Below are positions 5,186-63,266 of a stretch of 64,000 nucleotides of DNA, in pieces (within the stretch, counting starts at the first letter, position 1; each line of letters begins with the position of its first letter). This DNA comes from Polytrichum commune (Eukaryota > Streptophyta > Polytrichopsida > Polytrichales > Polytrichaceae), in the NCBI GenBank assembly GCA_950295325.1, contig OX485808.1, forward strand, positions 21,288,527-21,352,526. Direction: 5' to 3'. The notes beneath the pieces were generated by a model, which saw only the letters and a program-made list of their open reading frames with translations, ran no database searches and was not told where the DNA came from. The position numbers and the translations under genes were made by a program.

Positions 5186-5190
5186 CCCAC

Positions 5191-10126: not shown

Positions 10127-13100
10127 ATGGCTAAAGCTAGCAGAAACGCCATCGACTTGTTCGCAGTGCCAGTGGAGCGCCTTCCAGAGGGAGTCTCGGA
10201 TACCAATGGGAACGACAACTATGTCCCAAAAGAAGAAGTCATGGCTGAGTGGACGGCCATCCCCACGAAGACCGACGAAGGGTTGTTTGCATTGCGATTC
10301 ACTTATGAGCTGCAGACAAGGGCTGACCAACCAGACCAATGGGTGCAGACAAAGAATTGGGAGATAGAGTCCGTAGAGGCACAAGAAGACTTTGTTATTC
10401 TGGATATGAAAAATAAAAAAGACCATGTGAACCTCCTCTTAAACTACCTATTGCACCCATTCTCTTATGCTTATGCATGCAATAATGTCGCATCCGATGC
10501 GAAACATTTCAACCTGGATGCTCTCTTTACCAAATATGCCCTGAGTCAACACTGGACGGCGAGGAAGTTGACTGCCCTGACCTTGAATGTTTCGAAGTAC
10601 AACAGTGTTGCCGCGGAGGCAAATAAAATAAAATAAAATCCGAAAAAACCAGCTGCTTCGGGGGCAGGAGGATCGAGAAGTGCTCCGCGGCCTGTGCATT
10701 CGGAGAGCAGGTTGACAGAAGGGCCCAGCAGACAATCCACTCCATCCAAGAGGTCGAGGGACGAGATGGAGAAGTCCGGATTGACGGAAGGCGCTGAGGT
10801 TAGCTCTCCGCCAGTGATGCCAACCCCTTTGAAGAATGGAGAAAACCCAGACGCTGCCAAAGCGACAAAAATCCTTCGAGACTTCAACAACTACTCCAAG
10901 GATTGCTGGCCTATGGGACGCCACTTCACTTTCAACGTGGATTGTTTCAAGTGCGAGAAATCCCCTAACAAGTGGGTGGTGAGGTCTTGTGAAAGCGGGG
11001 GGGTGAAGTGGCAGATTAATAATCTCATGAACAACGTCAAGTGGGATAGGCAGACCGTCTGCGTGATGCCCAAGGGTTTTTTGTCACGCCCCACAGAGAA
11101 TGATTGGCCAAGAATCCAGAATGGAGAGTTCTGGATAATCGATGGACAACACAGTCTGGAGGCGTCACATATCATCCTAAAGGATGATAACTTCCAGCAC
11201 GAGCTCAAGGCGGACCTGCGCTACTGGAAGGCGTTTTTGGTTTGGTCTGATGACTGGGACAAGCTCCGCAAAATATCTACATTTTTGAATTCCGGAAACA
11301 AGATCAAGGCATTCGAGGCCTCCTGGGCGGCGAATATAGTGGCGGCCAGAGATGTGTGGGTCGCGCACGGATGCCCGCCAAAAGAGAGGGAGAACGCCAA
11401 GACGCAATCTCCACAGTGGAAGGTGAGTTCACGAACGAGCGTTCGTAAAGCATATGTTGCATTAAACAATTTCTAAATTTTCCAACTTACGAATGTGCGT
11501 TCGTATTTAGTATTGAACACTGACGTCCTTGTATGTATGTTGCAGGCGTTCTGTGATGCGATGGTGGACAAATTCTCCTCCATCGACATGAAGTCCACGA
11601 GCACCAAATCAGTTTTGGAGCTCAAAGGTGAGCTCCGTCTGATTTGCTGCAACAGAGACACCTGGGAGTTGTGGACCCAGTTCTTCGACGCTCACAGCTC
11701 GGGCGATCTAGTGAACCCAGACACAGAAGAGAAGTACGCTCAAGAGAAGAGCGGAGAGGCCCCGCCTCTACTGCGAGAATTTTTTAGGGCCCTGCAAGGA
11801 CTGACTGAATCAGAGTTGCAGCGTTGTGCGGTTCACGTTCTTGGGAACACCGTCGGAAGGACCATCCCTTATCCCAAGATATTTTTGAAGAGACCAAAGC
11901 ACAAACCTGGCACGTACTCGATCAAAGAGTGGTGCGACCACAGGAAGTTGAAGACCGCTGCGATGCGGGAGATTAGCGGCCTATTGCTTGAGATGCACCT
12001 TTTTCAGACCGACGAGGATATCAACTGGGCGAAATGGAAGGAGTTCAAGGTGCTGTACAATATCAACGGTGCCTCAATGCGCAGCCTGGTGAAGGAGCAC
12101 GTCGCCGTCCTGAAGCTCAAGGGAAACAAAAGAACAAAAAAAACAGAAACGGAACCTGAAGAGCTTCAACGGTACATCTCCTTCTTGGAGAGGAAGAGGA
12201 ACGCCACTTTCGAGGGCGTGGCAAGATTTTGTGTGGTGACCATGGGGCTGGAGAGGACCACGTTTTCCAAGTGGGATGGCACCTTCAGCAGGTCCGAGGT
12301 CAGGGAGGATCGAAGGGGTTGTCCCTTCGCGGTCATCGACTTCAGAGGGATCCCCGGTGCCTTGCGACAGGGCGCAAAGGGGGAGCCTTTTTACAACCCT
12401 TTCATGGCGAAATTCATGGAGCACAAATCTCCGACCATGAGGGAGCCGCACGTATGGCTGTGGATTGTGGAGCAGGAGAAACAATCCGTCGTCATCGATT
12501 TGTATGAGAACAAGATCAAGTTCGAGTACAACATCTTCCACAGCACATACGTGCCAGCGAAGACGGAGGGGATTGTTGCCGTAAACGAGGCCAGAGGCAA
12601 CAAGCAGGTGGGAACGGTGAGCCTCATCTTCTTGATGTACAATGCGCTTAGGAATGGGCGAGCACCCATAAAGGCGAACAACACATTCAAGAAGATATAC
12701 AGCATCCCTCACCCACCTCCAAAGGATCTCTTCCAGGAGACTATGTACACTGTCTTCCCGGCGCTGGAGCTGAGGATGGAGTTCTACGTCTCCATATTGC
12801 AGGGTTTGGCAATGACTGGCGAGACTGTCTACAATGTATTTGGGGGCAGCAAATTTATGTACGCGGCCATGGTAAGCGATCTCACACCACTTTTTACGAA
12901 CGCTCGTTCGTAAACACTGCATGCTCCAAACAATTTATCATGGGTAGCCGATACTTATGATTGTTTTGTGAATTATTTTGTTAGTATTTCCTCGCTCAAA
13001 GCCTTCATGTTTACGAACGCGCGTTCGTAAATGACTGAATCTTTGCCTTCTTATCTCAGATGCTGGGCCTGTGCGTGAACACATATATTGACGCCGTCGA

Positions 13101-14214
13101 CGAGGAGGATTACAAGTTCCACAGGACAAAAGCGTCGACGATGGACCTAGCTGACATGTCCGTGCCCAGAACGGACTTCAACATGCCGGCCGACGAAGGT
13201 ATGTCGCCCATGGAAACAGACGACGACGAGCCTGGCCCCTCCGTCAACGTCGATGCCATCCTCCAGGCTTTGGATGTCACTCCTCTCCGGTTGTTGGCCC
13301 CATCGGGGGAGCCTTCAGAATACCAAGGGACCCCGGCTAGATATACTGGATCCTCGGCGGGTGCCACCCAGGATGTCCTCCCCGCGCTTACCTCAGGCGC
13401 GGAGCCCTTCGGCACGCCAAGAGGTTGTTCGACGTCAGTGTCCCCCAAGCAAAGGCTGGCTGTCCCGAAAATGGAGACCCTCGATGTCCTCGACCAACGC
13501 TCCCGTCCCACGTTGGACCTGTTCCGCAACACGCGATGGAGGATGAAGAAGACCCCGTACGTGGAGTTGCCCGAGGGGGCGATCATCGAGGTCTCCGACG
13601 AGGACGAGGGGGACATGGACATTATGGTCGAGCTTGGGGTGGAGTTCGACAAGAACAAGAGGGTCAAGGAGGAGGCCCTTTCCGTCGCCGAGCTTAACGC
13701 AAAGCTCGAGCAGAAGATGAAGGAAGACATGGCTGCGGCTGCAGAGGAGAATGCCCGGAAAATGAGAAAAATTGAGGAGGAGCTGAAGTCCTCCAACGAG
13801 AAGACAGACGCCATACTGGCGATGCTGACCAGACTGCAAAACTTTGCAGTGGCCCCTCAGGCAGCATTCCCATTCCCTGCGGGATACCCCACGCACGGTC
13901 CTTTCCCGGGAGGACCTTCCTACCAGCCAGCGCCCCACCCAACGCCGGTGGGGACTCCTCCACCCCCTACAATGCCCACGGACACCGCCAACATACACGA
14001 CGCAGTCTCGGCGGCTATCCGTGAGGACGAGGATTTACGAACGCACGTTCGTGAATCTTCAGGTCCAACAGTCCTCACCCCACCCCCACCAAGGGTAGGA
14101 CTGCCTTCACAGACGGACACGGCACCTTTCACCGTCGTCCGGGAAACTCAAGTATGTGAGCGTAGAGCGGAGAGCGGAGAGCAGAGAACGGAGATTGGAG
14201 AGCGGAAAATATAG
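10127..14214 (+). CDS. Gene 1: ParB-like domain protein with degenerate DNA-methyltransferase-like C-terminal region
   Basis: Exons are 10127-11422, 11546-12871 and 13060-14214, all phase 0, with introns GTGAGT..TTGCAG and GTAAGC..CTCAG. The product is about 1257 residues if the in-frame TAA at 10634 is ignored. That stop lies in an AAAAT microsatellite and the same frame continues past it. About residues 260-400 form a ParB-like fold with IIDGQHSLEAS near residue 338, matching the DGNHR/DGQHR signature, then FLNSGN. Near residue 860, TGETVYNVFGGSKFMYAAM resembles motif I of beta-type N4/N6 methyltransferases (DPFGGSGT..A) with key positions lost. The position of motif IV holds IDFRGIPG instead of DPPY, so catalysis is unlikely. 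About residues 1080-1135 form a coiled coil, preceded by an acidic IIEVSDEDEGD stretch that looks like a SUMO-interacting motif. A donor GTATGT at 14152 could lead to a further exon. Gene 2 has the same domain order. Confidence 0.6.
10619..10639 (+). repeat. (AAAAT)n microsatellite with in-frame stop
   Basis: About four AAAAT units lie in exon 1 of gene 1, and reading through them gives a TAA at 10634-10636. The frame after it (AASGAGGSRSAPRP...) stays open and leads into the ParB-like domain. Unit gain or loss could create or remove the stop. Confidence 0.85.
11423..11545 (+). other. Intron of gene 1 with two palindromes
   Basis: GTGAGT donor and TTGCAG acceptor join WK to AFCDAM in phase 0. 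Palindrome cores lie at 11431 (perfect arms, 8 bp after the donor) and 11489 (one mismatch). Confidence 0.8.
12872..13059 (+). other. Intron of gene 1 with two palindromes
   Basis: GTAAGC donor and CTCAG acceptor interrupt the methyltransferase-like motif I region between YAAM and MLGLC. Perfect palindromes start at 12896 and 13013. Confidence 0.8.
14037..14052. repeat. Palindrome inside a coding exon of gene 1
   Basis: ACGAACGCACGTTCGT lies in the open frame and is translated as part of LRTHVRE. It is the only copy outside introns and intergenic DNA in this gene, and it keeps the frame. Confidence 0.8.
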
Positions 14215-22059: not shown

Positions 22060-23297
22060 AAAATGTGGCCACTTAGATTCCGAGAGGCTAGGCCTTTCAA
22101 GGCTAATGGACCAGATTTCGCATTGATTTGAATGTTTGAGTTAGCACTTAGTTTCCGAGAGGCTAGGCCTTTCAAGGCTAATGGACCAAATTTCGCATTG
22201 AATTGAATGTTTGAGTTAGCACTTAGATTCCGAGAGGCCAGGCCTTTCAAGGGTCTTGGACCAGATTTCGCATTGTTTTGAATGTTTGGGTTAGCACTTA
22301 GATTCCGAGAGGCTAGGCATTCAAGGGTCTTGGACCAGATTTTCGCTTTGAATTGTATGTTTGAGTTAGCACTTAGATTCCGAGAGGCTAGGCCTTTCAA
22401 GGGTCATGGACCTGATTTCGCATTGTTTTGAATGTTTGGGTTAGCACTTAGATTCCGAGAGGCTAGGCATTCAAGGGTCTTGGACCAGATTTTCGCTTTG
22501 ATTTGTATGTTTGAGTTAGCACTTAGATTCCGAGAGGCTAGGCCTTTCAAGGGTTATGGACCAGATTTCGCATTGATTTGTATGTTTGAGTTAGCACTTA
22601 GATTCCGAGAGGCTAGGCCCTTTCAAGGGACATGGACCAGATTTCGCATTGATTTGTATGTTTGAGTTAGCACTTAGATTCCGAGAGGCTAGGCCTTTCA
22701 AGGGTCATGGACCAGATTTCGCATTGCTTTGAATGTTTGGGTTAGCACTAAGATTCCGAGAGGCTAGGCCTTTCAAGGGTCTTGGACCAGATTTCGGATT
22801 GTTTTGAATGTTTGGGTTAGCACTCAGATTCCGAGAGGCTAGGCATTCAAGGGTCTTGGACCAGATTTTCGCATTGTTTTGTATGTTTGAGTTAGCACTT
22901 AGATTCCGAGAGGCTAGGCACTCAAGGGTAATGGACCAGATTTTGACTTTGTTGTGTATGCTTGAGTTAGCACTTAGATTCCGAGAGGCTAGGCCTTTCA
23001 AGGGTAATGGACCAGATTTCGCATTGTTTTGAATGTTTGATTTAGCACTTAGATTCCGAGAGGCTAGGCACTCAAGGGTCTTGGACCAGATTTTGACTTT
23101 GTTGTGTATGCTTGAGTTAGAACTTAGATTCTGAGAGGCTAGGCCTTTCAAGGGTAATGGACCAGATTTTGACTTTGTTGTGTATGCTTGAGTTAGCACC
23201 TAGATTCCGAGAGGCTAGGCAGTCAAGGGTCTTGGACCAGATTTCGCATTGTTTTGAATGTTTGAGTTAGCACTTAGATTCCGAGAGGCTAGCCTCA
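22060..23297. repeat. Satellite 2, 75-bp units, downstream of gene 2
   Basis: About 16 units of 'ttagcacttagattccgaga ggctaggc...'. Two subtypes are interleaved: one with 'cgcattgttttgaatgtttg', one with 'gactttgttgtgtatgcttg'. The same satellite occurs reverse-complemented at 52500-54012 and 61063-62260. Confidence 0.95.
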
Positions 23298-23427: not shown

Positions 23428-26400
23428 TCAACCACTATGACTACTATGTCTATCACTTTCCTCGCCCTGCTCTGCCTCTATGTCTAGGAAATCCAATACT
23501 AGTTTGTTGTAAGGCCGGATACGACTAGGAGGTGGGGATGGTGCTTCGGCCAAACGATGGGCAAGCTCTGAAGCATAAGGAGGGAGCTCGAACGTCGCCG
23601 AAGGCGTTGCAAAAATCTCCGCATTAAGAAAGCGGATGGGGCTTTTAATTTGAACTCTGTACATAGATGAAAAAAGAAAGAAACATGAGCACATGTATCT
23701 ATGTCAAACACTTAAGGATACAAAGGAAAACAAGGTAGAATCAACGAACAAACTTACTCACAGAGCAAATCGAAATTGCGCTTGGCCATCTTTCGAGGAG
23801 GAGGAGCAAAAACGGAGCCTCGTTGAGGGGCGGCGGGTTGAGAGGTTTGTTCTTGGTCAGGCTCGCGAAGGGGGAGGAGGATGGACTTGAAGACATCAAT
23901 GTCGGATTCAAGCGCCACAATATGGCGTTGAATGGAGCGGCATGCTATTATGGAACCTCCTAAACAAACAAAATGCGAAGGGATTAGCATTGGGAAATGA
24001 ATAAGCAACCGATTACAAATGAAAACAAAAAATCCAAAAGGAAAGAAATGAGAAAAACTAGAGAAGAAAAACGAACCAACACCACACTGCCAATCCAATA
24101 TAATGTCGTCCTTGTCTGTGAGGGCGGAGAAAAAGATCGAAAAGAATTCCGGACGCTTTTCACGGGCGCCTCTCCAAGGCACCCCGTCAACCCTCACGGA
24201 TTGGTTTTTTAAATCGGTGAAGCTGTTGAGCCAACCATCTCGTTTGAAATTGTAGCCCATGTCCATAAAGTCCGACGTGCGGACATTCAAAACGGACCGG
24301 TTCCGCACAAGTACCTTGATGAAAAATTTCCGAGTCTGCACAAATTGTGAAAGCTAGAGTTAGGAAAACAAGAACAAAACAAAAAGACTATGAATGAAAA
24401 TGGATGAAGGCCAAGAAGAAGTACCAGTTCAGACGGATTAGAGGAAGATTGAAGATCGAGGTCGCTCATGCCGAACCAGTCCTCGGCAACATAGAAATCC
24501 TCTGTGTGAGCCCAGTTATGAATTGATCTCGAAACCTCTGGATCGGCAGCATGCGCAAAGACGAGGACGCCATCGTCATGAAGGTTGGCATTCGCGAATG
24601 CAAACAGAATCTCGAAGTAAGTGGCTGAGCGGATGTTCCAGTGAGGAACATCCGAGGATGAAGAAGTGATGCTCGGAACACGTAGGTTCTCGGGCACATC
24701 TGCAAACAGGAGATCAATGCCCGTGTGAACCTTATGCTTGGTGTTTGGACGAGTACGACCCGCTCCAACCTGAAAGGTCAAAATGCAAAGAAAGTCAAAA
24801 AACAAGAAAATGATGAAATACATTGAATGAAAGAATAAAGCAATGCACACAAACCTTTGTTAGGAAGTCTTGGATGCGTCGGTAGGCCGGAGGTGGAACT
24901 TTGGTCTTCATGAGATCCTCAATGAGCTCCCCCATGTCCACATTCTCAATCAAAGAATGGCAAGATGACATGTCGTAGGAAGCTGCCGACGTATCAGGTG
25001 CAACAGCCTTCCGCTTGTGAGGCACAGATGGAATGGTTACACCGCTATGAGAAGGAGCAACTACCGGATTGGCGAGGGCGGCAGATGGAGTGGCGGTGGG
25101 ACTTCCAACCACGGTGGTGGTTGGAGGAACATTGCGTTGAACGGAGGCCTTGGCATTAGAACGTGAGGAAACTTGAGAAGAGGCATGGGCGAGAGCCTTC
25201 TTACCTCTGCCTCTACCCTTGAAGGGCGCAACATCCTTCTCAACCGATGGAGGAGCGGGAGTAGGTTCATCTGGCTCCTCATCCAATTCAATGACGTCGG
25301 GGCCGGAGTTCACAAGGCTGCCGTAAAGGGCTTCTTCTTCATCGGACACAAATGCACGAGAGCAATCCAAATACCAACCACATTCCTTCAAGTGCGAGGG
25401 TGGAAACTTTGCAACTTGCATGGCCGTATAGACACAAAGATTGGAGTGGACATCGATCCACTCCAAAAGGAAAGCGGGCAAGGACGAAGGAGGCAAAGCA
25501 TTCTTCACAAAGAGCTCGCGGTGAATGTACCTAGAAAATGGAAAACATAGAGTAAGAAAATTGCCGTGGAAAGGAAACGAAAGCGATGAAAAAAATTAAA
25601 GGAAAAGAGTACCGATAAGCAGCGCGTTTGATGGCGATGGGGCCTTCGTCGAACTCGAAGAGGTCAAGGCCTTTACTAAATGTTAAATCGGCCTTGTCCT
25701 CAAAATACACCCGGAAAGCCTTGTCCCACAAAATGAGCCTCCAATGCTCAACATAATTGGACGGGTGTAAAATCTCCGTGGAATTCCAATCAATGTCCAC
25801 GGACAACTCGTTCTCAAACGATGCAATTTCAGCCTCAACACCCTTCTCCAACTATATAAAGAGAGACCAACAGTTAGATATGGAAATGAGAGAAACTAAC
25901 AAACAAGAAGACACAAAAGATGAAGATGTACTTGTGCCCAAAAAGAAGCTTTGTTAAGCCAGTCGTCAAGGACTTTCTCACGGAGAGGAACAGAAGAGGG
26001 GAATTGATTTTCCATTTTGACCTTGGCGGGAGAATTCCACCACCGAAGCCACTTGGCTTTGAAACAGGCATCGACATGGGTGGTTGCCACCTTTTCAAGT
26101 TTTTCTATCGTCATATCGGGGTACATGAAGGTGGAAAAATGACGGTCAATCTGCAACATATGAGAGTGTAAGAAAGATGAAACTAGAATGGATGAAAGAT
26201 GAAGTTGAAAGCCAAAAGTAAAACAAATCGGAGGCGCACCTCATAGAAGAAGTCTTCGCCATTATCCTTGTGGGCGACGGAAATGAACTTCTCGAAATTT
26301 CGAGTCCGAATACTCTTGATGAGTTTCTCTTGCGCTTTGGTCATAGTATCCCAAATTTCGGTAGCTGACTTGCGGGATTCGGGTGTATTCTCCCGGTACA

Positions 26401-28807: not shown

Positions 28808-28987
28808 GATTAAGGGGTGAGTTCCGAAAGCAAAGTAGGAGGGTTGGTTCCCTCCTATGAACTATTGGTCCGGGGTTAGAGGAGCTAACCATTAGCATGG
28901 CGGTATGCGAAGGGTTAGCCACTCGTAACCTTTGCTAGAATTGAAAATTGGCAAGATGGTCAAGGGGGGCTAGCAAGGGTTGCGACA

Positions 28988-49400: not shown

Positions 49401-50944
49401 GGTGGATCCTTCAAGCATGACTGATTTGTTCAATGAGACCGCCGTGACAATGTGTATGTTGGAAAGGGTCTTCCCACCAGCATTCTTCGATGTCATGTCC
49501 CACTTGCCTATTCATTTGGTACAACAGTTAGACATTTGCGGACCAGTGCACACCCGGTGGATGTACCCAATGGAACGGTATCTGAAAACTCTGAAAGGAT
49601 ATGTGCGTCTTCGAAGCAATCCTGAAGGCTCTATGGCACAAGGCTACATCATGGATGAAGCAGTGGGGTTTTGTACTGAATATATGCAACATTGTTGTGA
49701 AAGTGAGCGTCGTGTGTGGGACGACAAAGAAGAACCTGCAATGAATAGCGAGGTCATGGAAGGAAATGGGCGGCATAGGTTGTTGCCAGACGAACTACGG
49801 TTTTGGATACATGAATTTGTGTTGAACAATGCGGAGCCGTTACAAGTTTACAGAGAGTAAATCCACGTACTTTGTGTTGTTGCTCTTGTGACTACATTGT
49901 TAACTAGTAATGATAGTCATAAGCAATTATAATGTGACTAAATGCAGTACTAGATATGCTTCATATGACTAAATGGAGTCATCATAGCTATTTGGATGAC
50001 TATTTGTAGTCATTGCATCATTAAGCTGTAATTACAGTGTTGTGGGAAGTGAAGTAATTAACGACTATAAAATGTGAGTGTCTGGTGCAGACGGCACGCT
50101 ACAGAAATGACCCGAAGGAAGAGGTCAAGGGAAGACATGCGACGTCAACAGCGGGGTAGGAGATTGGAGTACCCAAGCAGCATGCAAGAGGAGGCCTTCA
50201 CAACCTGGTTTCCTGTTGTAGTGCAAGATGAGATCAACCAAGGGACTAATGTATCCATGGACGTTCAAGCATTGCTAATGCCGCCCTCAAGGAACGCCAA
50301 GTCCTACAAGTCAATGTATGCGTATGGCAACCACATAAGGGTTCGTAGCATAGAATCAAACATGAATACATGTGATAGTGGTGTGGCTGCGACCTTTTTG
50401 CAAGCATGTCGTGCGAGCAGCAGTTCTAGAAATGTACGGACAACAAATTTAGAATACATAGGATGGGTGGAAGAAATAATAGGGGTAGACTATGGAGAGT
50501 TTGAGTTGATAGTTTTGTATTGCACATGGGTGAGAGCCAACCTCCGGGGCATCGGAGCAACAATGAAACGTGACGACTACGGCTTCACATTGATCAAATT
50601 CGATCGTGTCATACCGTATTCAGCAGACTCATTTGCATTTCCCCTCCATGTGCAACAAGTCTTTTTTTGTGGACGATGTGGAGAATCCCGAATGGAAAGT
50701 TGTGCTGAGGAAAGAAGCTCGAGGTGCAAGAGTGGCGTCTACATCTGAGAGAAGACCCGAAACACTTAGTTTACATGTAGGCAAAGATGAAGACTACCGT
50801 GGATTGAGATCTAATATCTTAAACGAAGATGTGGAACCTGGCGCACCGGTGCTAGAAGGTTGCACAGTACTTGAAGCTGAGGACGTTCATGCAACACTAC
50901 AAGAAAGAGAGGAAGAGCCAGATAACAATGAAGAGAGATTATAG
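46416..50944 (+). CDS. CACTA transposase gene (TNP2/TNPD type; Transposase_21, DUF4218, DUF4216)
   Basis: Exons are 46416-46613, 47260-48699, 48958-49856 and 50091-50944, with GT-AG introns and matching phases. The first exon carries the transposase-associated zinc-binding motif (YPCPCKKCMGG). Exon 2 has CPKCGQLRYK and the Transposase_21 core: LGLALDGVNPFSNQ, WPVVLLNYNLPPWL, DVYLAPLIEELKQLWEG, IHDFPAYGLVSG. Exon 3 gives HVLDAMHCEKNLCENIM and the DUF4218 signature (HLPIHLVQQLDICGPVHTRW). Exon 4 is the DUF4216 domain (TNLEYIGWVEEIIG, QQVF). The frame breaks in a 7-T run at 50662-50668: the sequence before and after it is coding, but in two frames. The enzyme would cut and join CACTA ends; this copy is probably truncated at the C-terminus. 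Confidence 0.9.
46614..47259. other. Intron 1 of the TNP2-type gene
   Basis: Donor GTATTT and acceptor ATGCAG, phase 0. It contains scattered TGACTA/TAGTCA motifs. Confidence 0.6.
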
Positions 50945-51166
50945 TCTGGCCTTTTGAGACGTCGCCTGATGTAGTCAAGTTGGACTAAAAGTAGTCAAAT
51001 TGGTCACCATGGTCGTACCCAATGAATAAAATTTTGTTCCCGAAGTTCGCCCCCTCGAGGTCCTATCATTTTTTACTACAACTTGACTGGGAATCTTCTT
51101 GGAATCTATTTTTACTAGTTGTAGTCATCATGTGACTAGTTAGTCGAGTTCGGTCAACTTGCTCTA
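50945..51166. promoter_or_regulatory. CACTA right subterminal region
   Basis: Several AGTCA/TGACT motifs lie between the transposase stop and the terminal repeat, mirroring the left end. Confidence 0.6.
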
Positions 51167-51194
51167 GTAAAAAAAGCCTGTATTTGGCATAGTG
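51167..51194 (-). repeat. CACTA right terminal inverted repeat
   Basis: It ends ...TTTGGCATAGTG, pairing with the left terminus. Confidence 0.9.
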
Positions 51195-51857
51195 GCCTGG
51201 GAGGGATTCCCGGGACTGCCAAGGTTCAAACAGGCATAACTTCCTCAGCACTTGCCCGAATGGGGCAAGTGAGGAGTCCATCGGCATCTACGTGAAGCGT
51301 AAATGAAGATGGAGTGGTTGGTTGCTGGAATCAGACATCATACAAGGAAGTTATGATGGTCTGAAGCTGCTGGGGGCTTCTAGGCCCAGCGGCTAAGGGA
51401 AAATGTCCACTTGGCCCCAACTCTTGGTAGAGAGACAAGAGGTTGGTTGACGGTGGGGTAGGGGCCCCGCGTGAAGTCCTAGAGGCTTATATGGGTGAGG
51501 TGGTGTGGCCTCACCCACCCGAGGCCGAACGGCAAGGCCTCCATGGGCATTGGCCCATTGTGAGGCCATAGTTGCCTAGTATGGTTCGGGTTGTTGTAGT
51601 GTTGCTCCGGCAACGCGATGATCAACATAGGATTGGACTTCCATGGATGGAAGTCCACATTGGGGAAATGGGTTACTGATTAAGGGGTGAGTCCCGAAAG
51701 CAAAGTAGGAGGGTTGGTTCCCTCCTATGAACTATTGGTCCGGGGTTAGAGGAGCTAACCATTAGCATGGCGGTATGCGAAGGGTTAGCCACTCGTAACC
51801 TTTGCTAGAATTGAAAATTGGCAAGATGGTCAAGGGGGGCTAGCAAGGGTTGCGACA
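51195..51857 (+). repeat. 3' LTR of element B, second part
   Basis: It continues the LTR from 34417 ('cctgggagggattcccggga') to the terminal GCGACA, followed by TSD GGAAT. Confidence 0.92.
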
Positions 51858-52467
51858 GGAATCCTTCTCGAGCATGGAATCAAACTCATCACTAGACTCC
51901 TGCCATAGTGAACTCCAGGAGGCTCGAATGTCATCCGAAACTAGAAGCACCTCATCAAGGTTGTTGTAGGGAGAGACATACATCGCACGGTCACCGTCAC
52001 GGTAACCATGACAAATTCGTTTTGCAGCCGAGCAACATCGACCTCGCTGATGGGGCGAACAAGAGGAAGACATTGCAAGCGGCACAATGGAATAGAGAAA
52101 CGTGACTTAGCAAGAGGTTTGATGCGAACCCTATGAATCACACCGATAGAGTCTTCTTTTTGGGATCTCCGAATCTCGAGCTCAGTCTCCTCCGCAGTAG
52201 ACTCATCAAGAGGACGCACGGGGTCAGATTGATGAGGTGAATCAATCTACAAGGGTGGAAACAAAGATATGAGATTAAGCCCAAAATATATTGAAAGCCA
52301 AGGTACCGGAAGTGCTTGGAAACAAAAGGAAGAGTTCACATAGAGAACACCTTTCCCGGTTGGACATCGACAAGTGGATCAACTTCCACCTCGGCAGGCT
52401 CCAATTGAAGAACATGGGCATCTATGGATGGATCCTCGGAGAGAATGAGATCCATAGCTTGAGACTC
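51858..52467 (-). pseudogene. Gene 2, middle exons: start of ParB-like domain, frameshifted
   Basis: Exons are 52467-52351 (39 codons, phase 0) and 52246-51858. The second begins IDSPHQSDP and contains VRIKPLAKSRFSIPLCRL then ISEVDVARLQNEF. The frame must then change by one base near 52005-52030 to reach GYRDGDRAMYVSPYNN and DSMLEKDS. The exon length (389 with TSD) is one base short of in-frame, agreeing with a one-base deletion. The exon is cut at 51858 by element B and continues at 27063. This is the substrate-binding half of a ParB-like fold whose GNHR motif lies after the insertion. Confidence 0.7.
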
Positions 52468-52499
52468 CTACACAAAAAGAAAAGTTAGACATTACCCTT

Positions 52500-54012
52500 G
52501 ATTGCCTAACCTCTCGGAATCTAAGTGCTAACTCAAGCATCCACAACAAAGTCAAAATCTGGTCCAAGACCCTTGAAAGGCCTAGCCTCTCGGAATCTAA
52601 GTGCTAACTCAAGCATACACAACAAAGTCAAAATCTGGTCCATTACCCTTGAAAGGCCTAGACTCTCGGAATCTAAGTGGTCACTCAAACATTCAAATCA
52701 ATGCGAAAATCTAGTCCAAGACCCTTGAAAGGCCTAGCCTCTCGGAATCTAAGTGCTAACTCAAACATGCAAAACAATGCGAAATATGGTCCATTACCCT
52801 TGAGTGCCTAGCCTCTCGGAATCTAAGTGCTAACTCAAGCATACACAACAAAGTCAAAATCTGGTCCAAGACCCTTGAAAGGCCTAGCCTCTCGGAATCA
52901 AAGTGATAACTCAAACATTCAAATCAACGCGAAATCTGGTCCAAGACCCTTGAATGCCTAGCCTCTCGGAATCTATGTGCTAACTCAAGCATACACAACA
53001 AAGTCAAAATCTGGTCCATTACCCTTGAAAGGCCTAGCTCTCGGAATCTAAGTGCTAACTCAAACATTCAAAACAATGCGAAATCTGGTCCATTACCCTT
53101 GAAAGGCCTAGCCTCTCGGAATCTAAGTGCTAACTCAAACATTCAAAACAATGCGAAATCTGGTCCATTACCCTTCAAAGGCCTAGCCTCTCGGAATCTA
53201 AGTGCTAACTCAAACATACAAATCAATGCGAAATCTGGTCCATGACCCTTGAAAGGCCTAGCCTCTCGGAATCTAAGTGCTAACTCAAACATACAAATCA
53301 AAGCGAAAATCTGGTCCAAGACCCTTGAATGCCTAGCCTCTCGGAATCTAAATGCTAACTCAAGCATACACAACAAAGTCAAAATCTGGTCCATTACCCT
53401 TGAAAGGCCTAGCCTCTCAGAATCTAAGTTCTAACTCAAGCATACACAACAAAGTCAAAATCTGGTCCATTACCCTTGAGTGCCTAGCCTCTCGGAATCT
53501 AAGTGCTAACTCAAACATTCAAAACAATGCGAAATCTGGTCCATTACCCTTGAAAGGCCTACCCTCTCGGAATCTAAGTGCTCACTCAAGCATACACAAC
53601 AAAGTCAAAATCTGGTCCATTACCCTTGAGTGCCTAGCCTCTCGGAATCTAAGTGCTAACTCAAACATTCAAAACAATGCGAAATCTGGTCCATTACCCT
53701 TGAGTGCCTAGCCTCTCGGAATCTAAGTGCTAACTCAAGCATACACAACAAAGTCAAAATCTGGTCCATTACCCTTGAGTGCCTAGCCTCTCGGAATCTA
53801 AGTGCTAACTCAAACATTCAAAACAATGCGAAATCAGGTCCATTACCCTTGAAAGGCCTAGCCTCTCGGAATCTAAGTGCTCACTCAAGCATACACAACA
53901 AAGTCAAAATCTGGTCCATTACCCTTGAGTGCCTAGCCTCTCGGAATCTAAGTGCTAACTCAAACATTCAAAACAATGCGAAATCAGGTCCATTACCCTT
54001 GAGTGCCTAGCC
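52500..54012. repeat. Satellite 2 in gene 2 intron 1 (first block)
   Basis: About 20 units of 75 bp, reading 'ggcctagcctctcggaatct', the reverse complement of 22060-23297. Subtypes with 'attcaaaacaatgcg' and 'atacacaacaaagtc' alternate, giving 150-bp dimers in places. Confidence 0.95.
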
Positions 54013-54988
54013 TGTCACGCACCTCTCCATGAGGAGTGCCCGAAACACCATGGGCACAAGGGGGACCCCGGAGTGACACCCGTGACTTGTGGTGCCGTTG
54101 GTGAGAGGGCCCAAGTGATCCTAGTGTGGGTGAGGGCCCCGGGCGTTGGGAACGCCTCCCACCCACGAAGATTAGGAGGCACAAGGGTAAGGCCATGAGT
54201 TATGCGTAGCTCATGGCGTGGTGATTCTAGAGAGCTCAAGAACACCTCAATCGGAGGTGTGAGCTAGGAGTTATGGCCATTTGAGTGGGGCGCTGCCCCG
54301 GGACAGCGCCCTGGTACAGCAGTGCCTGGGAGTGATTCCCGGGACTGCCAAGGTTCAAACAGGCATAACTTCCCCAAGACTTGCCCGAATGGGGCAAGTG
54401 AGGAGTCCATCGGCATCTACGTGAAGCGTAGATGAAGATGAAGTGGTTGGTTGTTCTGATCGGACATCATACAAGGAAGTTATGATGGTCTGAAGCTGCT
54501 GGGGGAGTTCTAGGCCCAGCAGCTAAAGGGAAATGTCCACTTGGCCCCAACTCTTGGTAGAGAGACAAGAGGTTGGTTGACGGTGGGGTAGGGGCCCCGC
54601 GTGAAGTCCTAGAGGCTTATATGGGTGAGGTGGTGTGGCCTCACCCACCCGAGGCCGAACGGCAAGGCCTCCATGGGCTTTGGCCTATTGTGAGGCCATA
54701 GTTGCCTAGTATGGTTCGGGTTGTTGTAGTGTTGCTCCGGCAACGCGATGATCAACATAGGAGTGGACTTCCATGGATGGAAGTCCACATTGGGGAAATG
54801 GGTTACCGATTAAGGGGTGAGTTCCGAAAGCAAAGTAGGAGGGTTGGTTCCCTCCTATGAACTATTGGTCCGGGGTTAGAGGAGCTAACATTAGCATGGC
54901 GGAATGCGAAGGGTTAGCCACTCGTAACCTTTGCTAGAATTGAAAATTGGCAAGATGGTCAAGGGGGGGGCTAGCAAGGGTTGCGACA
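54013..54988 (+). repeat. 5' LTR of element C
   Basis: It starts TGTCACGCACC (one change from the usual TGTCGC) and ends GCGACA. A TATA-like 'gcttatatgggtg' lies at about 54613-54625. Confidence 0.93.
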
Positions 54989-57900
54989 CTTGGTATCAGA
55001 GCAGGGTTCCAAGTTTTGAGCTCGCACTTTGAGGGAAACATGGCTATCAAAAATGCGGGTTATGATGGTGAGCCCGGGGTTTCCAAAAGGTTGTGAGGCT
55101 CAAATTGGAACAAGGATCATGTGCAAGTGGAATTTGACCATACCATTGGTTCTAATGACAATGGTGGGCATGAGGGTGGATTTGGTAAGGAAAATGGAGG
55201 AGTGCTTTGAAAAGGGCTCCCGCAAACCTCAAAAAACATTTGGGGCCTAGAATACCGAAAGCACCCAAAACCTTGGAGGGCATTAATGTTGGATTGAAAT
55301 TCCAATTCGAAATGCTTGGAAGGTATTGATGTTGGAATGAATTTGGTGCTAATGAGGCACCCGGGGCTTCTTAAGGCCTATGTGCGCTATTCAAACGCAC
55401 AAATGAAGGATACACCTAAAACGGACGAGCTTTCTAAGAAATGCATCCTTTTAGGTGGGGTTTTAAAAGCGGGTGGTGGATGCCTTGTTTAAGTCCCCAA
55501 GGCTTCTTGAGGACATGGTGGGGACCATCAAATTTGCAAGAGCATTGAAGCCGATGGTCCCAAAGAGAAATTCGGCTGCGCATCACCACAAGTGGCTTTA
55601 GCCAAGGTAGGTCCCAAAGAAATGAGTGCAAATTGTTTGGTCCATTTTACTTAGGCAAAACATGTTGGAGCCGCGGACGGAATGTTGAAAGGTGGCTTTA
55701 TGCTTCCAAAGCAAATCATACTTGTGCCGCGGACGGAATGTTGGGAGGTGGGTTTGTCCTACCAAGGCAATTCATGTTCGTGCCGCGGACGGAGTGTGGG
55801 AAGGTGGCTTTGTGCTACCAAGGCAAAACATGTTTGTTTTGCGGACAAACTATTAGAAATTGGTTTTGTGGCACCAAACCAATTTGTCCCGCGGACGAAA
55901 TGTTTAAAGTTGGCTTTGCGGACCAAGCCAAGCCAAGTTGCCGAGGACCGAATGTAAGACGATGGCATTGTGGCCTAGGCTAGTAGCCTTTAGCCAAGGC
56001 CAAGTCTTTTGTACCTTGAGGCTCAAATGAATGGGAGAATTGTCTCATGGGTTGACAAAGAGGCAAGCCATTCCTTCTTGAGCCCAAAACTCACAAGGGA
56101 GTTGGGGCTTGCCGATTGATAAAGCGGGCAAGCCCACCAAGGTGCGGTTTGGAAAGGGCAAACCGCATGAGACAAAGGAGGCCGCGATGCATGTAACCTT
56201 TCAATGTGGGACATTGGATTTTTGTCAAAATTTCACACCAAGTGAAATAGATGAAATGCATGTCATTGTGAAGGCCGCCTTCTTTGAAACTCACATGAAA
56301 GATGTGAGGTGCAAGCCGGTTTGCTTGCGGTCCATTATGATGTGTCATAATGGCAATGAGTTGATGTTCAAATTGACAAGGACTCCTATGGTAGGAGGAC
56401 CCAAGTTGAATTTGGTCTTAATGGACCAACTGAAAAATAGAAAACATAATGGTCGTGGTTCCATTGGAGCAACTTCAAGGAATGTATGGAGAGGCTAGGA
56501 AAGATGGACCTCCTCCAAATCACATTGGTGGGATGTTGGTGAGATACAAGGATGTATTCACCAATGTGTTGCTCAAAAAGTTACCGCCAAGGAGTGAAAA
56601 ATAACTTTGCTCAACGAGAGATTGAGTTCTTGAGATATGTGGTGACAAAGGAAGTTGGTGGACGAACATGAAGAATGTCAAGGCAATCCAAGAAGAGAAT
56701 TGGCCCTTGACTCAAGAAAAAGGCTTAGGTCATTTGTTGGCCTAACCAACTACTACCACCACTTCATTCATGGTTTTTCTAAGGTTGCTAGAACCTTAGT
56801 CAACATGTTGGGAAAAATGGCTATCCCAAGAGTGGGATGAGCCTTGTCACCAAGCCTTTGGGAAGCTCAAGAAAAAGTTCTCTTCACAAGATGTGGTTAA
56901 GTTTCGGGTTTTCATGAGCATGTTGAGGTGCACATGAAGGCAAAGGACTTTACCATTGGCGGATGTTGATCCAAGATGGAGGACCATTGCTTATGGGAGC
57001 ATTAAGCTCCATGGTTGTAGAAGCTTGTCCAACTTGTGCAAGAAATGGCTATCCCAAGAGTGGGATGAGCCTTGCCACCAAGTCTTTGAGGAGCTTAAGA
57101 CCAAGTTCCTCTTTACCACCCGTGTTCAAGTTCGCGGAGCTTGAAAAACCTTTTGAGGTGCATACGGGGGGCGAGGACTTTACCATTGGCGGATGTTGAT
57201 GCAAGATGGATGGCCATTGCATACGAGAGCATGAAGCTCGATGGTTCAACTTGTGCAAGAAATGGCTATCCCAAGAGTGGGATGATGTTTGTCACGAGTC
57301 TTTGGGGAGCTTAAGACCAAGTTCTCTTCACCGCCCGTGCTCAAGTTTACCGAGCTTGACAAACCTTTTGAGGTGCATATGGGGGTGAATGATTTTGCCA
57401 ATGGTGGATTATGTGTAAGATGGATGGCCATTGCATATGGGAGCATGAAGCTCGATGGTTGTCAAAGAAGACAACCAACTCATGACAAAGAATTTCTTTG
57501 CCGTAGTGCATTGCTTGAAGATGTGGCGACACTATTTGGGGTTGCACAAAGCAAAGGTCTACATGGACAATGTGTCCTAAAAGAATTTTGACATTGAAGC
57601 GCAAGTGAGCGCCAAGTCATTGCGGTGACATGATAGTTTGGCGCTTATGAAGGTGGATTTGATCCACAAACCGGACCGTGGAAATGTGGTGCCGGATGCG
57701 CTAAGTAGACTGGAAAAATTCCAAGCAATGAGAACCATCCAAACCTTGTGGCTAATGTGTGCCGGCGAAGGAAACTTGTGATGCAAGATACAGGAGGGGT
57801 AAATTAACTACCCCAAAGCACAAAAGCTTTTAGGTGAGCTTCGCAAGAGCAAGGTGCTCAAACAGGTTAAGTTGGTGGACGGATTGTTCAAGTGCAAGCA

Positions 57901-60085
57901 AAGTTGGGTGTATGTGCCACAAGGCAAGTAGAGGCTATCGGTTTTGAAGGAGGAATTTGATAGTCCTATTGCCGGCCTTAGAGGAGAAAGAAAAAATCGC
58001 CATAGAATGGTATCATGGAGGTACCATTGGCGGTGCATAAAGGAAGATATAGCCCACTTTGTGAAGGCTTGAATCAAAGTGCAAAGTGAACCGAGCCTCT
58101 TATCAAAAGCAAGGCGGTTTCTTGCAACCGTTGCCTATCCCGTGGGCGCCATGGCATAGTATGTGCATGGACTTGATCACAAGTTTGCCGGAGTCACATG
58201 CGTATGATGCCATCTTGTTGATGGTAGAGTGGTTTGCCAAGTTGGCACACATGGTGCCGATTGTGGGAACCGCCACCGCGTTGGAGACCGCATAGCCTTT
58301 TCTCAAAGGATGGTTGAGGCACCACGGGTTGCCAAGAGTGATTGTGTGGGATAAAGATTCAAAGTTCACAAGTGCATTTTCAATGCATTTCTCTAAGGAG
58401 GTCGGAATGAAACTAAGGTTTAGCACGGCCTTGCATTCCCAAATGGATGGGAGAACGGAGCGTGCGAATGGAGTCTTGAAGCAATACTTGAGGAACTTAG
58501 TGGGGGCGGACCAAGGAGATTGGGCGGACTATGTGGGTTGAGCGGAGTGTAATTGCAATGTAGCCACGCACTTGGCTACCAAGGGGTGGTCTTTCGTGGT
58601 GGCTTATGGAGTGGATGCGCTCCAACCTATTAACCTAGCTCTCGAGGGGGCACATTCAACACTAGAGTTCAACCAAGATGGTGAGGACTTGGCCAAGGAT
58701 GGTAAACAAATCTTGGAGATGACCAAGTTGTTGGTGGAGAAAGCCCGAAGGTGCTACGGAGTGCTAGTAAATGCCGGAAGACGCGAAGTGGAGAATGAGG
58801 TGGGCCAAAAGGTGTTGTTGAATGTGAACAACTTCACTTAGCCGGAAGGCCTCGCTCCAAAAGTTCATGTCCAAAATTGGAGCTTCGTTTTCCATTGTGG
58901 AATAAATGTTCAAGGACATGTATAAGTTGGAATTACCTCCGGAGATCAAAGTGCATCCGACATTTCATGTCTCATTACGAAAATCATATAAGGACGACAC
59001 CTTGTGGCCGATCACAAGCAAGTGATTAGGCCACATCCCGACCTTGTGGAGGTCATTTGGAACATGAGGTAGGAGGGCATCCTCAAGTGTAGGAAGCCCA
59101 AGTGAAAATGAAAGAAAATGTACAAAGGAGTACTTGGTGAAATGGTGAGGATACCATGAGAAAGAAACCGCTTGGGTGGCGGCAAGAGACATGGTCAACA
59201 CCAATGAATTGGTGAAGCACTTTGAAGAAACTAAGGCTAAGGATTCCAATAAAATGAAGCGTAGGCATTGATGAGGACATCAATCTCCTTTAGTGGGGGA
59301 GAGACACTAGTAGCACACTTAGCCTCGAGGTTAATTACTCCACAACATGAACTTGTTCTTTGGCTTGAGGGAATAAAGTCCAAACTTTAGTGGTGCAAAG
59401 AGAAAAGTATGAGATGAGGTCCTAGTCTTGTACTTGTGCTTGGTTAATGGAAGAGGGGGAATAGATATGCCAAACTAAGTTGGGTAAGCCGAGTAATTGG
59501 GGGCCATGGCTTGGAGGGGCCTTGGATAAAACCAAGAAATTTCTTAGCCGTGGGCTTGTCCGGGCGGGGACAAGGTGATGGCGCGTGCTCATAAAAGTGC
59601 TACCCGCGAGCTAACGAGAGTTGGCGCATGGGAGTCATGAACCCATGTCTCAAAAGAGCAAAGTGGGAACCGAGTCGGGCGGGACTTGGCATCACCCCCG
59701 TGCAATCGAGGCGTGGCTTAACAATGGAAAGCCATCTCGGAGTTGCAACAGAGACAACTTAGTGGAAGCGTTGAGGTCTCGCCTAGATGTGTCACGTTAG
59801 GCTAGTAGAGCCTAACGGGGGAGGCCCCAAAGTAGGGGCAACCCAAGTGAGTCCCAAAGTAGGTGGGTCAAATATAGGTTAGGTCCTTGGATGAGAGATC
59901 CAAGGTCGCTAACGGACCACCTAGGAACGACACCTTTGGGACTATGCCAAATTTGAAGATGCATTGTGGGGGTCGCGCCCTAAGGTAAACACAATGCCGC
60001 ACCATAGAGGATGGCAACTTGAGAATTGGTGTGCCGACTACGAGTATAGTCGATGAGGGCATCGACTCCGTTTGGTGGGGGTGAG
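54989..60085 (+). pseudogene. Decayed gag-pol internal region of element C
   Basis: Colinear with element B: PBS, Cys-containing tandem blocks (55670-55960), RT/RNase H boundary (FVGLTNYYHHFIH, about 56720), duplicated segments, and integrase core (about 58140-58830; RHHGLPRVIVWDKDSKF). A chromodomain-like remnant lies near 59130. Stops recur at the same places as in element B, plus private ones such as the TGA at about 58539. It cannot encode a full polyprotein, so its recent movement needed proteins from another copy. Confidence 0.82.
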
Positions 60086-61062
60086 TGTCGCGCACCTCTC
60101 CATGAGGAGTGCCCGAAACACCATGGGCACAAGGGGGACCCCGGAGTGACACCCGGGACTTGTGGCGCCGTTGGTGAGAGGGCCCAAGTGATCCTAGTGT
60201 GGGTGAGGGCCCCGGGCGTTGGGAACGCCTCCCACCCACGAAGATTAGGAGGCACAAGGGTAAGGCCATGAGTTATGCGTAGCTCATGGCGTGGTGATTC
60301 TAGAGAGCTCAAGAACACCTCAATCGGAGGTGTGAGCTAGGAGTTATGGCCATTTGAGTGGGGCGCTGCCCCGGGACAGCGCCCTGGTACAGCAGTGCCT
60401 GGGAGTGATTCCCGGGACTGCCAAGGTTCAAACAGGCATAACTTCCCCAAGACTTGCCCGAATGGGGCAAGTGAGGAGTCCATCGGCATCTACGTGAAGC
60501 GTAGATGAAGATGAAGTGGTTGGTTGTTCTGATCGGACATCATACAAGGAAGTTATGATGGTCTGAAGCTGCTGGGGGAGTTCTAGGCCCAGCAGCTAAA
60601 GGGAAATGTCCACTTGGCCCCAACTCTTGGTAGAGAGACAAGAGGTTGGTTGACGGTGGGGTAGGGGCCCCGCGTGAAGTCCTAGAGGCTTATATGGGTG
60701 AGGTGGTGTGGCCTCACCCACCCGAGGCCGAACGGCAAGGCCTCCATGGGCTTTGGCCTATTGTGAGGCCATAGTTGCCTAGTATGGTTCGGGTTGTTGT
60801 AGTGTTGCTCCGGCAACGCGATGATCAACATAGGAGTGGATTTCCATGGATGGAAGTCCACATTGGGGAAATGGGTTACCGATTAAGGGGTGAGTTCCGA
60901 AAGCAAAGTAGGAGGGTTGGTTCCCTCCTATGAACTATTGGTCCGGGGTTAGAGGAGCTAACCATTAGCATGGCGGAATGCGAAGGGTTAGCCACTCGTA
61001 ACCTTTGCTAGAATTGAAAATTGGCAAGATGGTCAAGGGGGGGGCTAGCAAGGGTTGCGACA
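60086..61062 (+). repeat. 3' LTR of element C
   Basis: It starts TGTCGCGCACC and ends GCGACA; nearly identical to 54013-54988. Confidence 0.93.
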
Positions 61063-62260
61063 TAGCCTCTCGGAATCTAAGTGCTAACTCAAACATTCAA
61101 AACAATGCGATATCTGGTCCATTACCCTTGAAAGGCCTAGCCTCTCGGAATCTAAGTGCTCACTCAAGCATACACAACAAAGTGAAAATTTGGTCCAAGA
61201 CCCTTGAGTGCCTAGCGTCTCAGAATCTAAGTGCTAACCCAAACATTCAAAACAATGCGAAATCTGGTCCAAGACCCTTGAAAGGCCTGGCCTCTCGGAA
61301 TCTAAGTGCTAACTCAAACATTCAATTCAATGCGAAATCTGGTCCATTACCCTTGAGTGCCTAGCCGCTCGGAATCTAAGTGCTAACCCAAATATTCAAA
61401 ACAATGCGAAATCTGGTCCAAGACCCTTGAAAGGCCTGGCCTCTCGGAATCTAAGTGCTAACTCAAACATTCAAATCAACACGAAATCTGGTCCATTACC
61501 CTTGAGTGCCTAGCCTCTCGGAATCTAAGTGCTAACTCAAGCATAAACAACAAAGTCAAAATCTGGTCCATTACCCTTGAAAGGCCTAGCTCTCGGAATC
61601 TAAGTGGTAACCTAAACATTCAAAACAATGCGAAATCTGGTCCACGACCCTTGAGTGCCTAGCCTCTCGGAATCTAAGTGCTAACTCAAGCATACACAAC
61701 AAAGTCAAAATCTGTTCCATTACCCTTGAGTGCCTAGCCTCTCGGAATCAAATTGCTAACTCAAATATTCGAAACAATGCGAAATCTGGTCCTTCAGAAA
61801 ACATACCACCTGGTGCCGAGAGCCCCACAACCATGAACTCCACGCCTCCACTCAACCTCAACATCGGGTCCCTCTCTACCTTACCCCCTCAACCTTACCC
61901 TCTCGGAGCCGAGCCGAGAGCTCATTGGCTCCTCCAAAATCTAGTCCTAGTCATCGTCAAGCTTTCCCCCTCGGAGCATTCCACAAAATGACAAAATCTA
62001 AGTGCTAACTCAAGCATACACAACAAAGTCAAAATCTGGTCCATTACCCTTGAAAGGCCTAGCTCTCGGAATCTAAGTGGTAACCTAAACATTCAAAACA
62101 ATGCGAAATCTGGTCCACGACCCTTGAGTGCCTAGCCTCTCGGAATCTAAGTGCTAACTCAAGCATACACAACAAAGTCAAAATCTGTTCCATTACCCTT
62201 GAGTGCCTAGCCTCTCGGAATCAAATTGCTAACTCAAACATTCGAAACAATGCGAAATCT
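61063..62260. repeat. Satellite 2 in gene 2 intron 1 (second block)
   Basis: It continues the array interrupted by element C, in the same orientation as 52500-54012. Confidence 0.93.
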
Positions 62261-62468
62261 GGTCCTTCAGAAAACATACCACCTGATGCCGAGAGCCCCA
62301 CAACCATGAACTCCACGCCTCCACACAACCTCAACATCGGGTCCCTCTCTACCTTACCCCCTCAACCTTACCCTCTCGGAGCCGAGCCGAGAGCTCATTG
62401 GCTCCTCCAAAATCTAGTCCTAGTCATCGTCAAGCTTTCCCCCTCGGAGCATTCCACAAAATGACAAA
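61523..62468. repeat. 473-bp tandem duplication
   Basis: A composite of five satellite units plus a unique 'ccttcagaaaacatacc' to 'attccacaaaatgac' segment is present twice, 473 bp apart (for example 61788 and 62261), with very few differences. Confidence 0.9.
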
Positions 62469-62846
62469 ATCTGGTCCCCTTCAACTAATGCATTTCCCTC
62501 TCAAACTCCAACAAACCACACATTGAACTACCAAAGCATATATTCATTCATCCGTGAAGCTTAAGAACCTTTTATCAAAATCCTCCAACCTCATTCTCTC
62601 TCAATCCATTGCGCACACTAAAATGTGCCGCGAATTTAACCTTGACTCGTATATCCATTCTAACATTTGACTGTGACTGAGGGTTCCTGGAGGTACCCTC
62701 TCGGTGCCGAGACCACCGTTTGAACATATATTCAATCTTTCTGATATGTGTCCGTTATCCTAACCATACAATCATTCCATTGTCGTGTTTGCTTGAAATT
62801 GAATCCTCAAATGCCATTTTTCATATAACTTAAACGACAATCTTAC
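62469..62846 (-). other. 5' end of gene 2 intron 1
   Basis: Non-repetitive intron sequence. Donor GTAAGATTG at 62846 is strong, and the next acceptor (TGTGTAG) ends at 52468. The intron is thus about 10.4 kb, filled by satellite and element C. Confidence 0.55.
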
Positions 62847-63266
62847 TATAAGAATGGAATCATCTCTTGTCTCCTCCTGATATCCGCTTTGATTTGAACT
62901 GTTGGGTTGCTCGCTTTCTTCCATAGATGCCGCGGGGGATTCACTATCCTCCCGGTCTTCCTCTATCGGCTGTAGATTCAATTGCCGTTTCGAAGATCCT
63001 CTCTTGCTCTCTCCACCTGTGCTTTGCACGTCTGATGGGGTTCCTCTACCCTCTATGTACGATTCCTCCTTCTTCTTCAGTTCTCTCCGTCTCCTCTGTT
63101 TCGAATTGCTGAAACTCAATCCTCCCTTGCGCTTCTTCCGCTTCTTTCCTATATCTATTGTGGAATCTGTATTGTGCTCTGGTTCCTTCATGTGTGCGTC
63201 CCAGTTCCGCTCTGCTTCCCTTTTCGTATTCTTTACTCTCTCAGCATCCCTTTCCTTCGCTCCCAA
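62847..63266 (-). CDS. Gene 2, exon 1: basic N-terminal region
   Basis: 140 codons from ATG at 63266 to the donor at 62846, phase 0, matching the phase of the exon at 52467. The protein starts MGAKERDAERV and carries two basic clusters (KKRKKRKGG, KQRRRRELKKK) that look like nuclear localisation signals, then an acidic Ser/Glu-rich stretch. If not spliced it would end after 24 more codons at 62772 as a 164-residue protein. I prefer the spliced reading because donor and phase fit, but the 10-kb intron is inferred. Confidence 0.55.

Follow-up and report, generated by a model that had tools for sequence, protein, structure and literature searches.

A lineage-matched palindrome as candidate binding site of a ParB-methylase-like gene in Polytrichum commune

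The DNA analysed here is a stretch of 64,000 nucleotides from Polytrichum commune (contig OX485808.1 of assembly GCA_950295325.1), which is called the window throughout, and its main subject is a long gene on the plus strand, gene 1, together with a short CpG-rich palindrome that is clustered around and inside this gene. We tentatively propose, at somewhat less than even confidence, that gene 1 encodes an accessory protein of a DNA transposon, which reads the palindrome and shields the element from silencing. A first-pass annotation of the window had described gene 1 and a second gene on the minus strand, gene 2, as fusions of a ParB-like with a DNA-methyltransferase-like domain. For such ParB-methylase accessory proteins, the palindrome provides a concrete candidate site that is matched to element lineage.

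The palindrome in the window and in relatives of gene 1

The palindrome ACGAACGNNCGTTCGT is found 24 times in the window at up to two mismatches (20 copies are exact and four carry one mismatch), against 0.04 copies expected, and this count was reached by none of 100 shuffles. All copies are located within 5294-14052; 15 of them can be extended to TTACGAACGNNCGTTCGTAA, and nine to a 22-mer. They are found upstream of a divergently oriented DUF7869 gene, immediately upstream of the gene 1 start codon, and within gene 1, where four copies are situated in the two introns (311 bp in total) and one in the last exon (Table 1). In the gene 1 region, only one of twelve palindromes is thus exonic though the exons make up 79%, which corresponds to a binomial P of 2.8e-7. 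The CpGs of the motif are intact in 93 of 96 cases, with one transition-type change, and the CpG observed/expected ratio is 0.62 for the window, which shows an excess of TpG/CpA, and 0.56 for both retrotransposon stretches. With the motif masked, the ratio is 0.44 and 0.60 in the introns and 0.56 between the promoters, and it is higher at the promoters themselves, as discussed below. Because the motif-masked ratios of the surroundings are mixed, the retention of CpGs in the palindromes is only suggestive as an argument for function.

Gene 1 was confirmed at 10127-14214, where the first-pass annotation had placed it, as three exons with GT-AG borders that keep the frame across both joins and encode a protein of about 1,260 amino acids. 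A lone in-frame TAA lies in a low-complexity linker. As the relatives P0002 and P0062 read through this position without break, the stop appears to be a lesion in the present copy. It is located inside an (AAATA)n run, as though a microsatellite expansion had created it. Just 3' of the gene, at 14555-15121 on the minus strand, there is an open reading frame of 188 amino acids whose F-box match is weak and remains below the cut-off (E 0.015).

Relatives were searched with exon 2 of gene 1 and the corresponding part of P0002, which is 52% identical to gene 1 and covers 87% of the query region. At a cut-off of E 10, this search returned 55 relatives (P0008-P0062), of which 54 had E values of at most 2.5e-34 and P0062 one of 4.5e-10; the most distant ones with near-full cover of the exon, P0052 and P0056, share 37% identity with the window. 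The family shows strong residue conservation over 47 rows, and none of the 55 relatives contains a stop codon, in protein sets that are called from open frames. Two short peptide patterns fitted 61 stretches of prokaryote genomes and 52 stretches of viral contigs, and none of these was confirmed as a relative.

The open frames of the relatives often run into the adjoining introns, and these translated flanks were searched in three frames for peptides that the palindrome would encode. At least six residues of translated non-coding flank were available for 44 of 56 relatives; the head of P0002, being coding, and the tail of P0061, being non-homologous, were excluded. A strict palindrome peptide was present in the flanks of 26 of these 44, namely in 13 with spelling A (ACGAACG), in five with spelling B (ACGGACG), and in eight in a frame that does not separate A from B. 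In 1000 shuffles the mean was 0.06 and the maximum one match, and 21,516 coding residues gave no match at all. The spellings were then placed on a tree of 55 rows, from which P0061 was excluded as too short and whose region P0062 does not cover. All 13 rows with spelling A (the window and 12 relatives) fall into one clade of 29 with a support of 100/99, and all five rows with spelling B into its sister clade of 24 with a support of 98/95, so that the A and B spellings require a single change on the tree, which is matched in both arms of the palindrome. A further spelling C (TCGGTCG) is probably present in a single sequence, P0052, where two peptides are able to share a half-site (TCGGTCG or TCGGTAG), while none of 300 shuffles shares any.

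Two other views of the palindrome were set aside. As a bacterial or phage feature it finds no backing, as the exact 22-mer was present in none of the viral-contig stretches and in two genome-contig stretches with one site each. A likeness to the Gram-positive LexA box was dropped, as neither spelling B nor spelling C agrees with that box.

ParB-like and methylase-like parts of the two proteins

The motifs on which the first-pass annotation had built its proposal (DGQH, GNHR, VFGGSKFM and DWQCGVGGS) are all present in the two genes, and no Pfam family was found above the cut-off in either of them. Profiles were compared by hhalign with ten phage methylases, six of which are ParB fusions, and with 13 phage ParB sequences, and the significance of each score was assessed by 300 column shuffles; a Brochothrix ParB protein, for which five viral stretches gave no confirmed relative, was used solely in the ParB profile. 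Against the methylase profile, the motif-I half of gene 2 scored 34.3 (shuffle maximum 22.2, reached by 0/300) and its motif-IV half 17.7, a score that 10 of 300 shuffles reach. The motif-I half of gene 1 scored 25.1, again above every shuffle (maximum 20.2, 0/300). When the 47-row gene 1 family was used, none of 150 shuffles reached the score of the motif-I half, over 21-26 columns, and 52 of 150 reached that of the motif-IV half. The middle part of gene 1 was matched by five of 100 shuffles against the methylases. Against the ParB profile, the ParB stretch of gene 1 scored 23.7 (shuffle maximum 18.9, 0/300), over 24 columns only. No such signal was obtained for gene 2, as 80 of 300 shuffles reached the score of its ParB read-through (13.1) and 64 of 300 that of the downstream part alone (12.4), and the methylases score above ParB on this stretch (20.6 over 12 columns). 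Wrong-profile controls scored 8.8 to 21.2, and the hhalign probabilities were 46.5% for the gene 2 methylase, 6.9% for the gene 1 methylase, 9.2% for the gene 1 ParB and 0.3% for the gene 2 ParB comparison.

The profile-profile comparison suggested at first pass therefore bears out the motif-I half of gene 2, and supports neither the gene 2 ParB nor the gene 1 motif IV. The ParB stretch and motif I of gene 1 exceed all shuffles, but over few columns and with low hhalign probabilities. Of the ParB domain claimed for both genes, a weak similarity stands for gene 1, and profile support is missing for gene 2. The claimed order of motif IV before motif I holds as a methylase-like half in gene 2 and, for motif I, more weakly in gene 1, whose motif IV resembles shuffled sequence.

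The C-terminal end of gene 2 matched two DpnA chains in the PDB (E 0.014 and 0.015) as its sole matches there, as well as three methyltransferase families in PHROG (E 0.0073, 0.17 and 0.34). Among the best 20 of its 50 phage matches at E 10 or better, of which the first has an E of 0.01, 14 are DNA methylases or methyltransferases, five are hypothetical and one is unannotated. For the ParB side, P0002 gave matches below the cut-off to DUF6551 (E 0.03) and DUF1015 (E 0.043) in Pfam and to ParB in PHROG (E 0.096), and Pfam gave no match to DUF6551 or DUF1015 for gene 1 itself or for P0062. The ParB assignment would accordingly seem weakest for gene 2 despite its GNHR, and that of gene 1 draws on the 24 columns and on these sub-threshold matches of P0002.

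The catalytic motif IV, (D/N/S)PP(Y/F/W), is found neither in the gene 1 family nor in gene 2. Instead of DPPY, the gene 1 family contains D in 47/47, F in 47/47 and R in 46/47 rows (one row has DFC), and the motif I position, which usually holds D, is N in 37 of 41 ungapped rows. Gene 2 and P0001 carry DVPE at the motif IV position, without an aromatic residue. This suggests that proteins of the gene 1 family may bind without methylating. The Box-II arginine, the change of which abolishes nucleotide binding in ParB-CTPase according to PMC12704722, is missing in gene 1, P0002 and P0062, which have DGQHS, and gene 2 keeps GNHR. As gene 1 lacks this arginine, a spreading clamp of the parS type is only a possibility for its protein.

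When the gene 1 family is aligned with gene 2, the register is right (ELRMEFY over EKRPEFF), but the scores are 15.7 and 14.4, at an hhalign P of 0.2 and 0.06. From these comparisons, gene 2 would possess a permuted methylase-like C-terminal half, with motif IV before motif I, that is clearly methylase-like for the motif-I half, and gene 1 is read as a strongly worn ParB-methylase relative, which agrees in order but not in catalytic residues. As for gene 2, its product is probably another, diverged protein that shares the general build of gene 1 and belongs to a different element; the two genes are about 9 kb apart, each in its own repetitive surroundings. An acquisition of the fusion from a mobile element, as proposed at first pass, is compatible with the sequences, because six phage proteins share the same order.

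Gene 2 and the other features of the window

The ten exons of gene 2 on the proximal side of its break have open frames and GT-AG borders, and together with the upstream parts the gene would encode a protein of about 1,080 amino acids. A single relative was found, P0001, with 61% identity across 41% of the query. The first-pass annotation was right in that the gene is present on the minus strand from 23428. A long terminal repeat (LTR) retrotransposon with TG...CA ends and the target duplication ATTCC on either side is inserted in the ParB-like exon (27069-51857). The start at 63266 is unsupported; an ATG exon is readable at 52455, and a further exon may lie upstream. The segment 62772-63287 is situated beyond the 75-bp repeat array and shows no link to gene 2. 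Besides the retrotransposon break, the frame changes near 52000. The break is probably young, because the LTRs of the retrotransposon are 99.0 to 99.4% identical in the pieces compared.

Gene 2 is enclosed by two tandem arrays that share one 75-bp unit and are in inverted orientation, the left of which ends about 130 bp from the stop codon and the right of which begins about 35 bp from the ATG. A palindrome scan of the window found no ACGAACG palindrome near gene 2, and the arrays may take the role of the palindromes there, as a candidate only.

The window is transposon-rich, with a CACTA element, LTR retrotransposons and long tandem arrays. One of these, a 4-kb array at 15304-19396 with a 101-bp unit and an 87-bp variant, has a CpG observed/expected ratio of 0.04, far under that of the other stretches measured. 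A short TTTAGGG-type tract with a period of 7 is located at 7530-7567. No Rfam family at gathering score and no tRNA was found in the window.

Table 1. Positions of the palindromes, genes and repeats in the window
Feature	Position	Strand	Remarks
DUF7869 (PF25273) gene, divergent	2064..5287	-	E 2e-40; intron near 3590-3710; taken as transposase-like
Twelve palindromes	5294..6278	.	upstream of DUF7869 gene; partly in 310-bp tandem duplication (5641-6280)
Seven palindromes ACGAACGNNCGTTCGT	9610..10092	.	immediately upstream of gene 1 ATG
Gene 1 exon 1	10127..11422	+	N-terminal domain and ParB-like stretch (DGQHS); TAA at 10634-10636; from splice sites and frame
Gene 1 intron 1	11423..11545	+	palindromes at 11431 and 11489
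Gene 1 exon 2	11546..12872	+	helical middle, motif IV-like strand (DFR..PG), motif I-like loop (NVFGGSKF)
Gene 1 intron 2	12873..13060	+	palindromes at 12896 and 13013
Gene 1 exon 3	13061..14214	+	acidic, coiled, proline-rich tail; one palindrome at 14037-14052
75-bp tandem array, 17 units	22070..23295	.	3' of gene 2, inverted relative to upstream array
Gene 2, remaining ten exons	23428..27063	-	GNHR stretch, helical middle, motif IV-like DVPEN, motif I-like DWQCGVGGS
LTR retrotransposon in gene 2 ParB exon	27069..51857	.	target duplication ATTCC at 27064-27068 and 51858-51862
CACTA element (Transposase_21, DUF4218)	about 34418-51190		nested in right LTR of gene 2 retrotransposon
Gene 2 ParB-like exon, upstream part	51858..52246	-	frame break near 52000; severed at 51858 by retrotransposon
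Gene 2 first coding exon	52351..52455	-	start codon (ATG) at 52455; based on splice signals alone
75-bp tandem array, 34 units	52490..62265	.	5' of gene 2; split by second LTR retrotransposon (54013-61062)

Possible roles of the palindrome and comparison with known systems

In the reading that we favor, gene 1 and the divergent DUF7869 gene would be the two visible genes of one DNA transposon, with gene 1 in an accessory role. The gene 1 protein would represent a ParB-like and permuted-methylase scaffold that has lost the residues for methyl transfer and the ParB Box-II arginine, and it would recognize the palindrome over 16-22 bp at both promoters and in its own introns. This binding would most likely keep host silencing marks off the non-coding regions of the element and mark the DNA as self, after the manner of the Arabidopsis protein VANC. 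We infer that it is the gene 1 protein, and not the DUF7869 protein, that would bind the palindromes, and anti-silencing as the presumed outcome is suggested by analogy. The transposase role of the DUF7869 gene is likewise presumed; a literature search for DUF7869 by name found no paper.

Several observations weigh against this reading. As a comparison of two flanks (1600-2300 and 14150-15400) found no terminal inverted repeats of the gene 1 element, the placement of gene 1 and the DUF7869 gene in one transposon rests on the palindromes and the head-to-head gene order. As the motif spelling tracks the element lineage, the palindromes might just as well be read by the DUF7869 protein. The spellings of the relatives were read from peptides and not from DNA, and a strict match is absent in 18 of the 44. 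Clade B is not uniform, as P0026, P0028 and P0036 carry a different peptide whose spelling peptides cannot fix, and with four spelling labels the tree needs five changes. In P0052 the number of palindrome-compatible peptides (four) was matched by 45 of 300 shuffles and is not unusual. At the two promoters, the motif-masked CpG ratio is 0.82 (5288-6300) and 0.92 (9500-10126). On the protein side, the methylase likeness of gene 1 is limited to about 25 columns, the score of its motif-IV half (11.9) is reached by 142 of 300 shuffles, and no methyltransferase was returned from the PDB when a profile of 56 sequences of this family served as query. Finally, Pfam found neither DUF1985 nor DUF287, the domains of VANC, in genes 1 and 2, P0001, P0002, P0062, P0012 and P0056.

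It is a classical finding that transposable elements encode proteins which bind short, repeated motifs, as with TnpA of maize Spm, and the palindromes could accordingly be transposition sites that are read by the DUF7869 protein or by a TnpA-like gene 1 protein and that serve end pairing or control of the transposase promoter. This alternative, which we regard as rather unlikely and still as the strongest competitor, has in its favor that precedent and the location of 12 of the 24 palindromes upstream of the DUF7869 gene. However, palindromes are also found in the introns of gene 1 and, as judged by the peptides, beside the same exon in relatives, for which end pairing gives no reason; the element ends were not found in the compared flanks.

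We consider it distinctly improbable that the protein is catalytically active as a DNA methyltransferase and places N6-methyladenine or N4-methylcytosine on its own element, as was suggested for algal proteins (PMC12477816). Gene 2 indeed possesses an Asp at the motif IV position and DWQCGVGG as motif I, its only PDB matches are adenine methyltransferase chains, and the annotations of phage proteins with this order are those of DNA or adenine-specific methyltransferases. Against this stand the DFR in place of DPPY and the prevailing N at motif I in the gene 1 family, as well as the DVPE of gene 2, which lacks the aromatic residue in a gene that is broken. Least credible, with a small chance of being correct, is that the palindromes are neutral passengers of local duplication and the gene an old coding relic, as the partial 310-bp duplication in the 5294-6278 cluster and the stop in the gene 1 copy might indicate, but which does not agree with palindrome peptides beside most of the relatives with usable flanks, with clade-linked changes matched in both arms, with the strong residue conservation, or, as a partial argument, with the kept motif CpGs.

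A broader view can be taken, which we hold with somewhat less confidence, at perhaps one chance in three: eukaryotic DNA transposons might possess a second class of sequence-specific systems for anti-silencing or self-recognition that has evolved independently. In it, a catalytically dead ParB-methylase would read and co-evolve with CpG-rich palindromes (ACGAACG, ACGGACG and probably TCGGTCG), and it might spread from them in the way that ParB spreads from parS. In that case, transposons would have invented a VANC-like self-recognition more than once, and a natural protein family with readable and switchable DNA specificity would be at hand.

The phage fusions of ParB with an N6/N4 methylase (L088, L091, L092, L093, L095 and L096) consist of ParB, a helical linker, motif IV and motif I, an order that the corresponding ParB-like and motif-like stretches of the window proteins follow; phages with ParB folds fused to N6/N4 methyltransferases are also described in PMC12704722. 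The phage proteins have 384-429 amino acids and keep DPPY, and the window proteins are in contrast longer and diverged. The first-pass annotation knew of no described plant family with this fusion; ParB-methylase proteins have, however, already been reported in algal transposons (PMC12477816). That Ectocarpus paper, in the portion accessible, proposes that the proteins bind and modify their own transposon, and neither this portion nor our literature searches named a binding site for them; the accessible portions of PMC12730594 and PMC12695648 do not mention ParB. As in the algal proteins, ParB-like and methylase-like parts are joined in one long protein in the window (1104 amino acids in the algal case), and gene 1 and a transposase-like gene are encoded on opposite strands. 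As far as descriptions alone can be compared, the window differs in that the neighbor is a DUF7869 gene, the catalytic methylase motif is lost in the gene 1 family, and a candidate target is visible.

A possible functional parallel is VANC of the VANDAL transposons. According to PMC5735166 and PMC10398659, the short motifs to which Arabidopsis VANC21 binds are situated in introns and 5' of the transposase gene, VANC expression causes DNA methylation to be lost, and the regions targeted by VANC21 consist of tandem repeats whose motif type varies between subgroups. The gene 1 element likewise shows clustered short motifs in its own introns and upstream of the transposase-like gene, tandem repeats, and motif types that are specific to groups. 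It differs from VANC in that the protein is unrelated, VANC being built from DUF1985 and DUF287, and in that the motif is a CpG-rich palindrome of 16-22 bp instead of YAGTATTAY.

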